DNA of 64,000 bases from positions 15,910,501-15,974,500 of the forward strand of contig CM077649.1 of the NCBI GenBank assembly GCA_039707465.1, given 5' to 3'. Both the position numbers and the translations under genes were made by a program. The notes beneath the pieces are model-generated. The model saw nothing but the letters and a program-made list of their open reading frames with translations. It was not told the DNA's origin and made no database searches. The DNA is from Rhabdophis nuchalis. Taxonomy: Eukaryota > Chordata > Lepidosauria > Squamata > Natricidae. Shown in pieces: positions 5,693 to 52,567 of this stretch; the stretch's first letter is position 1; each line of letters begins with the position of its first letter.

Positions 5693-6199
5693 ACCCCCCA
5701 CCTCCCCTTGTCCTTCTCCATCAGATTCCCCGTCTCTCCTTTCCCCACTTCCCTAGCGCAGATGCGAGGGAGCCTGGCCTGCGCCGTGCATTTGTACGCA
5801 TTTCTCAACCGAGCACGCTGAATGGATGCCCGTCGGAAAGGAAAAGTGCGTGGCCAAGGAAAGGCGCTGGAGGGTCCGCGGGGGAAAAAAAAAAAGAGAG
5901 CGAGCGAGCGAGCGAGAGAGAGGATCGTGTGCGAGAGTCTATCTGGCGAGCGGGAGGTCTGCCTACCCCAGGAGCCCGTTTTATCCCCTCGGTGCAATCT
6001 GAGCCTCTGGGGTTCATGCCAGTTTTGCGGGAGCGAGGTCCTCCCGTGCTTCAACGCGTGCTCTTAAAGAGCTGAGCCCATGTACAGCCTTGCCGGCCAC
6101 TGGGGTTTAAGAAAGCGGGATAAAGCTGCCGGGCTGAAGCGCGCTGTGGCTGCTCGGCACAACTGCGAGAAACATATCTCTCTCTATATCTAGAATTGT

Positions 6200-6485
6200 T
6201 CCACAACACCCTGTTAGGACCCCAATTAAGGGAGGAAGCACACTGCTTTCCTCTTCTGCCTTTCGGCTCATCACCAGAGACCATCTAGAGCAGGGGTCTC
6301 CAACCTTTGCAACTTTAAGTCTGAAGGACTTCAGCTCCCAGAATTCTCCAGCCAGAATTCTGGGAGCTGAAGTCCTTCAGACTTAAAGTTGCAAAGGTTG
6401 GAGACCCCTGCTCTAGACAGAAAGCCATGAGTTCCGTTGTGTGATTTTTTTTTAATATGTGTTAGTTGATCAGCTCATAAAACTA
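6200..6485 (-). repeat. Half copy of the hammerhead-linked repeat
   Basis: Shares with 36485-36640 the blocks TTAAGGGAGGA, TCTGCCTTTCGGCTCATCAC, AGACCATCTAGA and GATCAGCTCATAAAACTAAC. It includes only the part lying upstream of the tRNA-like and ribozyme segments on the minus strand. A MITE (6291-6410) has inserted in the AGACCATCTAGACAG block. Confidence 0.75.
6291..6410. mobile_element. hAT hairpin MITE, subfamily A
   Basis: 120-bp palindrome, CAGGGGTCTCCAACCTTTGC to its complement, lacking about 15 bp of the usual centre. Flanks ATCTAGAG (6283-6290) and CTCTAGAC (6411-6418) match at 6 of 8 positions. The paralogous uninterrupted site at 36550-36557 reads ATCTAGAC, which supports this as the original target. 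Confidence 0.9.
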
Positions 6486-6924
6486 ACATCTATATATCTA
6501 TATATATATTCGCCTAATAGTGGCGTTGTGGCGGGTTGGGGAACGGAGCCCGAGAGCAAGACAATCGTTCTTTCGGAAGGGCATAATTGCACAGAGAGAT
6601 CCGAAGGAGCCGGAGTTGTTAAGCGCCTCCCCCCCACGCCGTCTTATTTGCATTTCAAATGCTCGGAGATCAAAGCCAAGAATCGGCTCGGTGGAGATCG
6701 TCGACGCTGTATTTGCCTGGGACATTCCAGTGAATAAATCCCATTAAAGTCGGTGGGTTTATTTCTTAGTAGATGGGTAAGGCCACGGCGTTGAGGATTG
6801 GCTCGTTGGTTTGCTTGCATGTGGCGGTTTCTGGGTTTTTGGGCAGGAGGCTCTCTTGAAGAATTTCACTATTGAATTTGGGACAACACACTGGGATGCC
6901 TGTATTACCTGTACTAGGGGGTTG

Positions 6925-35513: not shown

Positions 35514-36300
35514 TTCTACAAAATTATTGTTGATGGCTAACCGGATTATAATGATTTGTGAGCCAGAATATTTGAAGATAGGTTTTTGAAAGCTTAACTT
35601 TTCATTTCATCAGAACACATTATTCAAAACAGAAAGGAGGCATTTTCCCATAGTGATGGATAGTACAAGTGGGTTTCACAAATGGATCTATGGTGCCATG
35701 GTTTCTGCAGGAACAAGTAGAATCAGTGGTATGAATCCTGGTTCATACGATCTGGTACATTGTAGTCACGTTTTACAAATCCCCACAGTATTGCTCACGT
35801 AACAACCAAAATGGAAGCTACTTCATGGCATTGATTGATATGTGAATCATGACCCAAGCAACCATTTTCTGTAAATGACAATTCTGCTTCTTCACTGGAT
35901 TGAATGTGTCTTCCCACTGATTTGGAGAATCGCCGTTTATAATCTAGTCTCTCCAGTGGAACTATTGTGAATCTCTGTGATTTTATCTAGAACTTTAAAT
36001 CAGAAATAGTATACGATCTTTCCAAATTAAAAAATGAATGGTATAAGTGGAAGCAGTAGTCAATGTTAATTGACATTTAAAAAGCATGCTGTGTGATAGC
36101 CTGTGATAATATTTTCAGTTGATGACAAATGAGATTAGTTGGTGATCTCACCAACTGAGATTAGTTGGTAAAATTGATATTGTTTAAAGAAAAGCAAAGG
36201 AAAATGGAAACATACTATATATTTTGATTATCTGAAGCGTACTGTGGTCTCTTATATCCAGTTTTGAGATCACAAGTGGAAACAAAAATAACTGGCAGAT

Positions 36301-36322
36301 GTGTGTGTGTGTGTGTGTGTGT
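36301..36322. repeat. (GT)n microsatellite
   Basis: Eleven GT units directly next to the terminal GTTAGG of the hammerhead-linked repeat. Confidence 0.95.
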
Positions 36323-36640
36323 TAGGTTTTTGAGCTGATCAATAAATAAATCAGGGAGACTAGGATAGATCTATTTCGAGCTATTTAGCTCTCATCAGCT
36401 AGCCATATCCTTACTGGGATTTGAACCAGGGAAGCATTACATGTGAGGCAGCTGCAATTGCCACCAGACCACTGGCTCTTATCCTGATCAGCATTAAGGG
36501 AGGAGACATACTGTTTCCTTTTCTGCCTTTCGGCTCATCACCAGAGACCATCTAGACAGAAAGCCATGAGTTCCGTTGTGTGATTTTTTAAATATGTGTG
36601 TTGATCAGCTCATAAAACTAACACACACACAAACATATAT
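36319..36640 (-). mobile_element. Retroelement-like repeat with tRNA-like promoter and hammerhead ribozyme
   Basis: Bounded by inverted ends TGTTAGGTTTTTGAGCTGAT (left) and the complement of TGATCAGCTCATAAAACTAA (right). On the minus strand it has, in order: a block shared with 6200-6485; a tRNA-like part with A-box-like TGGTCTGGTGG (36463-36473) and B-box-like GGTTCAAATCC (36418-36428); and a hammerhead fold (36358-36404). A nonautonomous SINE- or Penelope-related element is the best guess. No protein is encoded. Confidence 0.6.
36358..36404 (-). ncRNA. Type I hammerhead ribozyme
   Basis: Minus strand: stem I strand GGCUAG (36404-36399), core CUGAUGA (36398-36392), stem II GAGCU-AAAU-AGCUC (36391-36378), core GAAA (36377-36374), stem III AUA/UAU closed by GAUC (36374-36365), cleavage-site C at 36364, stem I return strand CUAGUC (36363-36358) with one G-U pair. 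All invariant residues are present. The minimal stem III is the form seen in Penelope-like elements and retrozymes. Cleavage is predicted between 36364 and 36363. Confidence 0.75.
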
Positions 36641-51289: not shown

Positions 51290-51545
51290 GGTGGGGGTTG
51301 ATTGGCTGTGTAGTTGTATCATGATTGGTAGATTGGTACTGGCTGTGTGTCTGTTGTTCTTTTGTGTTGTAATGACCTGGGTGGTGGGTGGGGCTCGTTT
51401 GTTGACTAGGGCTGGTGTCCAGATGTCTGGTAGGTGGGAGGTATCGTCACGCTTATTCATGTTGTGGGGGTGTTTCTCTATTTTGATGGCTTCCATAATT
51501 ATTCTCTTGTTGAAGTGTTCAGTTTTGGAGATTAATTTGGTTCCA
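51290..51545 (-). mobile_element. Inverted copy of the Penelope-like element 3' end
   Basis: The minus strand (51545 to 51290) matches the plus strand at about 52100-52345 almost base for base: both code KLISKTEHFNKRIIMEAIxIE KHPHNMNK and then the same Asn/Thr/Gln-rich tail. So the element begins with its own 3' end in reverse, as in many Penelope-like insertions. The (TG)-rich block at 51280-51295 marks its outer edge. Confidence 0.88.
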
Positions 51546-52540
51546 CACCATCTACCAGAAAAAACACACACCAACCGCTACCTAAACGCACAATCCCATC
51601 CTGCACAGATCAACTCTGTAGCCAAGACCCTCATCTCCAGAAGCAAACGCCTAGCCGACAAAGACCACCTGAAAACTGAATTACACACTCTCATCAATGC
51701 ATTAATCTCCATCGGATTCCAAAGAAAAACAGTTACCAATCTAATACAAAAGGAGACACCCTCTAAGAACCGCGACACAGAACAGGACAATGGCATCGCT
51801 CTTCTCCCTTACATCAAAGGCACCACAGAAAAAATCAGCAAAATTCTCCACAAGCACAATATCAAGATAGCCTTCAACACTTACCAAAAAATAGCCAACA
51901 TCTTAAGAAACTCCAAAGACAAGATCCAGCTAAAAAGGAGTCTACGAAATACCATGCAAAATCTGCCCTGCAACATACATTGAACAAACCAATAGGAGAA
52001 TAAATGCATGCATCGCAGAACACAAGAACGTAGTAAGAAAAAAAAAAGAAAAAAACGTCCTCCTTTTTCAGCACCTTAAAGCTACAGGACATGAAATTGA
52101 TTTTGAAGGAGCCAAATTAATCTCCAAAACTGAACACTTCAACAAGAGAATAATTATGGAAGCCATTGAAATAGAGAAACACCCCCACAACATGAATAAA
52201 CCTGACAATACCTACCAGACATCTGGAAACCAGCCCTAGTCAACAAACAAGCCCCACCTACTAGCCAGGTCGTTACTACACAAAAGAACAACGGACACAC
52301 AGCCAGCACCAATCAGCAATCATGATACAACTACACAGCCAATCAACCCACTTACAGAAACAAAGCCAGCACTCCCCCCCCCCAAGATTTATAGTAAGAT
52401 GGCAACTCCGACCACGCTTTACTCACACAAATACGAAGCCAAAAACACCAGCCTGAAGATGGTGAGTGAGACCTCGCCGAAACATTGCCAAGACAATCTC
52501 AATCTTACATGGGAAAAGACCCGAATACAACAAGACCAGC
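51546..52540 (+). mobile_element. Penelope-like element, RT C-terminus and GIY-YIG endonuclease
   Basis: The frame 51546-51980 encodes the region after the RT palm: KTHTNRYLNAQSHPAQ (the conserved xPTHTDRYL motif), a Leu-rich part, LPYIKGTTEKISKILHKHNI and AFNT. A one-base shift near 51938 moves the frame; the next frame reads GVYEIPCKICPATYIEQTNR, the endonuclease GIY-YIG region with YIE in place of YIG, then LISKTEHFNKRIIMEAIEIE. The RT catalytic part is missing (5'-truncated). A nonfunctional copy. Confidence 0.88.
52453..52494 (+). ncRNA. Hammerhead ribozyme core in Penelope-like tail
   Basis: CUGAAGA (52453-52459, matching CUGANGA), stem II GGUGAG/CUCGCC with loop UGAGAC (52461-52478), then GAAA (52479-52482). 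A stem III AUUG/CAAU (52484-52497) can form but with a C-C mismatch next to the cleavage site, and no matching stem I was found. Hammerheads are known in Penelope-like elements; this one is probably decayed. Confidence 0.5.
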
Positions 52541-52567
52541 ATAGATAGATAGATAGATAGATAGATG

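Follow-up and report, generated by a model that had tools for sequence, protein, structure and literature searches.

The window, the whole 64-kb stretch of DNA that was analysed, carries on its minus strand a retrozyme monomer (36324..36602) that spans M1-M331 of the family unit, with approximately 52 nt missing at 36493/36492, and is 79% identical, gap counted, to the reference unit L099:763-1093. Along this strand an A-box-like motif (TGGTCTGGTGG, 36461..36471) and a B box (GGTTCAAATCC, 36417..36427), both read directly from the sequence, are followed by a type I hammerhead ribozyme (36358..36404) with a predicted cleavage site at 36364/36363, position 291/292 of the family unit; the hammerhead is conserved in 130 copies, and its palindromic stem III (ATAGATCTAT, 36365..36374) is found in 109 of them. 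The first-pass annotation had proposed this succession of tRNA-like promoter boxes and complete hammerhead on the minus strand, and both direct reading and the Rfam match bear it out. Past M331 the monomer runs into an AA(CA)n tail (36300..36323, minus strand), the main 3' insertion end of the family. The repeat had been placed at 36319-36640 as one unit; the monomer lies within this span at 36602-36324, but the span also includes, in inverted orientation, part of the tail of another copy (36603..36640, plus strand; approximately M313-331 and a CA repeat), recognized by an inverted match of query positions 6-49 to the tail. Monomer and inverted tail piece form a head-to-head arrangement.

Two other loci in the window belong to the same picture. 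BLAST and the sequence itself reveal a second, fragmentary retrozyme copy (6196..6505, minus strand) composed of an inverted tail, M5-51, an inserted MITE and M46-138. The MITE belongs to a near-palindromic family with ends CAGGGGTC, which we take to be hAT-like; this member occupies 6284-6410, and the window contains 12 other copies. Further along lies a 5'-truncated Penelope-like element (PLE) of the candidate helper family (51550..52543, plus strand), with broken C-terminal reading frames, a 3' UTR and an (ATAG)n tail, and an inverted PLE piece (51295..51544, minus strand; 90.4% inverted match) stands head-to-head with it. Within the PLE 3' UTR, at 52453, a hammerhead-like core (CTGAAGA...CGAAA) occurs that has no Rfam match.

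The window element is a damaged member of a family that is dispersed in the genome as single, tandem and inverted copies. A search of the assembly holding the window (1.92 Gb, 348 contigs) with the 322-base query returned at least 101 pieces (40 scored of 1973 first-look candidates), and 27 genome pieces are 95-98% identical over the right-hand part, 36492-36319. At some loci query end 322 is joined straight to position 39, and these joins define a monomer of 331 nt (L099:763-1093). Searching with this monomer returned at least 83 pieces (40 scored of 3983 candidates), the full-length ones besides the query being 93-97% identical; neither candidate number, 1973 or 3983, is a copy count. Merging the loci from both searches and from the Rfam search gave 70 fragments; the retrozyme is present in 69 and lacking in one (L119). 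Loci found by the RF00163 search were excluded from the monomer profile, copy L127 (55 nt) from alignment A1, and clusters shorter than 150 nt or lying 60 nt or less from a fragment end from the junction and end counts. Among the 88 clusters that reach 150 nt, 62 head-to-tail junctions occur in 51; head-to-head junctions are present in 35 and tail-to-tail junctions in four. In viral and bacterial contig collections the family has exact-word matches only, with nothing better than E 0.13 from nhmmer against 90 loci.

Metazoan non-LTR retrozymes are distinguished by a type I hammerhead, a tandem monomer of 150-450 bp, a lack of coding sequence and low GC content; they are also devoid of LTRs, have target duplications of more than 4 bp where these occur, and give rise to linear and circular RNA of approximately 170-400 nt. 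In the present family the hammerhead lies in the monomer, units of 331 nt occur in tandem, the longest stop-free run in a trimer of one monomer is 53 codons, and GC ranges from 0.39 to 0.45 (mean 0.42; 46 monomers). The earlier suggestion of a small retroelement containing both a tRNA-like part and a ribozyme is thereby kept but recast: this is not a simple SINE but a tandem-forming retrozyme, and its copies look PLE-made. Judging from the sequence comparisons set out below, the element is probably a retrozyme with a putative internal pol III-type promoter, mobilized by PLEs.

Evidence for the promoter comes from the persistence of the two boxes. In 96 full-span copies the majority A box is TGGTCTAGTGG and the majority B box GGTTCGAATCC, both nearer than the boxes of the window copy to what we take to be the canonical A- and B-box consensus. 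That the tRNA-like and ribozyme parts occur together in genomic copies, as had been anticipated for a genuine composite element, was found in 124 of the 131 nhmmer matches that span the hammerhead, which also include the B box, and 97 of the 131 include the A box too. Chance rarely produces such a pair: a perfect B box with an A box matching at 9/11 or better arose in 3 of 200,000 order-1 random monomers, and no more than one mismatch per box is seen in 39 of 46 monomers vs. 3 of 9200 shuffled heads. The spacing between the boxes is 44 in 42 of these monomers, 45 in three and 49 in one. Clustering the heads of the 46 near-full monomers together with that of one reference gives five groups (38, 6, 1, 1, 1) that differ between the boxes, and representatives of all five types keep the A box (0-2 mismatches) and the B box (0-1), so that the internal pol III promoter characteristic of SINEs is represented by putative A and B boxes in five head types. 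Scans of the window and of 21 retrozyme loci with ARAGORN detected no tRNA, and the tRNA likeness is therefore at the level of the promoter boxes only. A possible CORE/MIR kinship of the tRNA-like unit was dropped after a MIR sequence scored 14, a value equalled by 11 of 500 shuffles.

The boxes could instead be relics, with the retrozyme RNA produced by pol II read-through, as the published model permits any polymerase (PMC7761336, in the part describing that model) and the A box is less conserved (0.83) than the B box (0.953). We consider this origin unlikely, though deserving of attention, given that boxes and spacing persist across five diverged head types; the absence of a TTTT run from 44 of the 46 monomers points the same way as weak evidence.

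A conventional tRNA-derived SINE moved by a LINE, with the hammerhead as decoration or chance, would share with the family the constantly spaced boxes, the short length and the simple-repeat tail, and LINE-like sequence that we presume to be CR1 occurs in 14 of the 70 fragments when a second reference set is used (PLE in 16 of 70). Such an element is improbable here in view of the head-to-tail junctions in more than half of the clusters and the compensatory changes in all three ribozyme stems described below. Moreover, CR1 labels just two contact rows, at M45 and M52, where the MITEs insert. No 3' tail shared with a partner LINE was noticed in the window or the loci; in a LINE-tail search that was not exhaustive, the 3' tail was seen to be common only to pieces of the retrozyme family.

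Outward 3' ends of the retrozyme number 119: 71 at M326-331, the site of the tail in the window copy, 22 at M131-153, six at the MITE site and 20 elsewhere, so that two preferred sites, both AC-rich by eye (AACCTAACACAC, GTGACACAAGC), together account for 93. The 3' flank is a microsatellite in most cases: a short-unit repeat follows 62 of the 71 ends at M326-331 and 10 of the 22 at M131-153, vs. 123 of 2000 background stretches. The 5' ends are scattered; a group at M1-8 is mostly due to a piece of tail that comes before it and is too short for the 30-nt limit. Ends at M45-52 were considered as retrozyme ends but are read as MITE insertions and counted separately; six MITE-retrozyme junctions (contacts of at most 30 nt) occur at three loci, where the retrozyme resumes beyond the MITE. 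The hAT-like MITE, presumably so classed, also sits in the TCTAGA site of several retrozyme copies.

PLEs, whose hallmark is a reverse transcriptase (RT) joined to a GIY-YIG endonuclease (PMC11167929, in part), have been called "a strong candidate" for retrozyme copying in a section of PMC7229834 and are named as candidate retrozyme helpers also in a section of PMC7761336. The PLE family of this genome (40 loci scored of 3575 candidates) has head-to-head neighbours at six of the 40 loci. A related copy in L173 retains a YVDD motif and a GIY-YIG-like one, which lie in different, interrupted frames, with weak Pfam matches below the cut-offs (GIY-YIG, E 0.0059; RVT_1, E 0.064). PLE sequence is found in 16 of 69 retrozyme fragments (approximately 135 kb outside the retrozyme) vs. 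one locus in a 104-kb control, a small one made up of ten random 4-kb stretches without PLE and the window with one place; two of the 16 fragments (C4:26634500.. and C4:26732000..) resemble copies of each other, and a looser threshold gives 17. Direct contacts between retrozyme and PLE (at most 30 nt) comprise eight junctions at seven loci, some via short TA tracts, and the same contact list includes just the two rows labelled CR1.

Three loci present a plain fusion of PLE and retrozyme in which the interrupted element does not resume in the fetched flank. At C3:181844504.. PLE coding sequence leads into retrozyme M313-331, then M1-331 and (CA)n, facing an inverted PLE; this arrangement crosses the 331/1 junction, and copying accordingly went past the junction, as from a multimer or circle. 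At C1:234379207.. (L093) the retrozyme passes into PLE near M107, while at C3:170075100.. PLE passes into retrozyme at approximately M316. These fused insertion scars suggest that Penelope does the copying of the retrozyme, and as genomic sequence the chimeras are direct support for the published hypothesis of PLE mobilization. For the PLE protein of Anolis, cleavage and extension of both target strands have been shown, with a start inside the RNA at an AC-rich stem-loop and two start sites that account for two alternative genomic ends; the PLE ribozyme is dispensable for insertion in vitro (PMC11167929, sections on the purified protein). Two-strand action and two start sites of this kind would explain the head-to-head copies and the two preferred ends observed here.

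Spread of a satellite-like repeat by recombination and microsatellite exchange, with PLE neighbours brought in by a shared preference for microsatellites, has some appeal for those contacts that run via TA/CA tracts (C6:19117033.., C1:273421323.., C2:158341800..). It has little probability, however, as an account of an element with two preferred 3' ends and variable 5' ends, or of chimeras formed at non-repeat sequence, as at C3:181844504.. and C1:234379207...

The hammerhead of the window copy consists of stem I (GGCTAG/CTAGTC, with one G-U pair) followed by CTGATGA, stem II (GAGCT/AGCTC) followed by GAA, and stem III (ATAG/CTAT around AT), with C17 at 36364. A covariance model had been proposed as the check on this reading, and RF00163 does cover all 45 model positions (E = 1.7e-6 over 600 bases; 1.8e-4 over the full 64 kb with 4227 families), but the score of 33.4 bits falls 0.6 below the gathering score of 34. 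It is the sole hammerhead among the matches listed in the 64 kb, and no Rfam family reaches its own gathering score anywhere in the window. In the genome at least nine hammerheads exceed the Rfam cut-off (73 scored of 227,684 first-look candidates), eight of the nine being retrozyme copies other than that of the window, which score 34.6-37.7 with Hammerhead_1, over the cut-off of 34. The majority base of 130 full-span copies (102 distinct) agrees with the window copy at all core and stem positions, as the first-pass reading would require of a consensus. No tested core base is lost in 95 of the 130, which retain at least 5/6, 4/5 and 3/4 pairs in stems I, II and III.

Covariation supports the fold. 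In 90 distinct aligned copies 96.0% of cells pair, vs. 34-56% for slid partners, and changes on both sides of a pair occur in 24 cells, vs. 2.9 in shuffles (none of 500 reaches 24) and 2-13 when slid. They touch six of 17 pairs, a number reached by 2 of 500 shuffles. Two results run counter to this: in one slid version two-sided changes affect more pairs (eight vs. six) but fewer cells (13 vs. 24), and the number of pair types is no higher than in shuffles (237 of 500). Compensatory changes occur in each of the three stems. The double changes sit in few older lineages: L092 and L114 have them only in stem I, and copies in L165, L140, L113 and L096 have them, between them, in all three stems; being so concentrated, they are read as at least three compensatory events and not as 24. 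Conservation of the ribozyme was also considered as a sign of selection, and this argument was dropped since the ribozyme window ranks 60 of 285 in 46 copies, with no extra conservation relative to the rest of the monomer. The hammerhead fold of the window 47-mer is predicted at -7.2 vs. a minimum free energy (MFE) of -11.0 kcal/mol, and the MFE structure of the whole window monomer (z -1.05) contains 5/5 pairs of stem II, 0/6 of stem I and 0/3 of stem III; these modelled energies, like the shortness of stem III, would speak against a highly active ribozyme in vitro. A hammerhead that is degenerate or due to chance and has no catalytic role would suit the score slightly under the Rfam cut-off, the weak stem III and the unfavourable energies, but is very improbable for a motif common to 130 copies, intact at its core in 95 and bearing compensatory changes.

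The family may accordingly be pictured as following a life cycle in which a retrozyme depends on PLE enzymes. RNA polymerase III would start at the internal tRNA-like promoter and could read through tandem units, most of which are free of TTTT. The hammerhead in every unit would cut the multimer into 331-nt pieces, which might be closed to circles. From the anatomy of the insertions, the PLE RT-endonuclease would then take up multimeric or circular retrozyme RNA and begin copying internally at an AC-rich site, and both cut target strands would be extended, the two cDNAs being joined head-to-head. In its full form, this reading takes the element to be a circular RNA parasite in an amniote genome, transcribed by pol III, able to cleave itself and dependent on the Penelope machinery. 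Its tRNA-type promoter would be kept or exchanged across lineages, and Penelope RT would copy the circle or multimer, switch between the retrozyme and the mRNA of Penelope and extend the two strands of the target, with head-to-head scars as the result; taken as a whole we put it forward tentatively, at somewhat under an even chance.

Several known systems resemble this element in part. SMalpha of Schistosoma has a pol III promoter; it is a flatworm element, compared here through the Rfam consensus alone, and we know of no head exchange or PLE fusions for it. Like the present family, it is small and SINE-like with a type I hammerhead, active in that case (PMC8490949, in part). The metazoan non-LTR retrozymes share the type I hammerhead, non-coding tandem monomers of approximately 300 bp, GC below 45% and co-existing PLEs, with axolotl monomers of approximately 330 and 350 bp (Cervera and de la Pena 2020, PMC7229834, in the sections describing them). 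In those sections, unlike here, the vertebrate cases are amphibian only and no tRNA-type promoter is described; the terms "polymerase III", "reptile" and "lizard" are absent from the main text. An amphibian retrozyme hammerhead with a palindromic loop is described there as working better as a dimer, and the palindromic stem III noted above parallels that loop. Penelope/Poseidon also has a hammerhead motif, tandem copies, an internal AC-rich RT start and extension of both target strands, but encodes RT and GIY-YIG endonuclease, whereas the retrozyme encodes nothing (PMC11167929, in the relevant sections). The Squam1, Squam2 and Squam3 SINEs share a tRNA-type head and simple-repeat tail and are set apart by the LINE-derived 3' region in their descriptions (parts of PMC7983390 and PMC10702118); the word ribozyme is absent from both main texts. 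Intronic amniote hammerheads such as HH9 are isolated motifs, as treated in parts of PMC6155905 and PMC3088659, in contrast to the dispersed repeat analysed here.

Among the literature matches listed (titles and starts of abstracts, with few subscription papers covered) there was no reptile retrozyme or retrozyme with a pol III promoter; PMC10886601 was the sole match listed that joins retrozyme, polymerase III and hammerhead, and a search by sequence words gave no relevant title among the matches listed. What is new is the combination of retrozyme and promoter together with the PLE chimeras, the retrozyme class itself being already known. The transcription route and the copying enzyme of animal retrozymes are two questions left by the treatments in PMC7229834 and PMC7761336. 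The family has promoter boxes that its subfamilies retain and insertions physically joined to Penelope sequence; it makes both questions testable in one system, and a lizard Penelope protein has already been purified and is active in vitro (PMC11167929, in part).

A few other observations concern individual copies and loci. Scored with HH9 (RF02275, cut-off 52), six retrozyme copies (L106, L118, L165) reach 24.7-32.5 bits, under that cut-off yet above their Hammerhead_1 score, which may bear on the origin of HH9. The best of the nine genome hammerheads (38.1 bits with Hammerhead_1) is at L119:1501-1543 (C4:77436078-77436120) and BLAST finds nothing that matches it in the retrozyme fragments or in the rest of its own locus; as it reads AAAA for GAAA, it is possibly a decayed intronic hammerhead. 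A second hammerhead was considered in the 5' half of the monomer (TGATGAGCCGAAAGGC, M62-77), which has no Rfam match, is without C3 and G12 by eye, and is treated instead as a conserved hairpin. The surrounding stretch, at 36558-36493 in the window (M45-112), is a second conserved structured region, whose hairpins seem by eye to stay paired in an old copy of 64% identity. Finally, at positions 240-2689 of L093 (C1:234379207..) inverted pieces of Penelope and of the retrozyme are densely interspersed over approximately 2.5 kb, a pattern that suggests repeated insertion into microsatellite tails.
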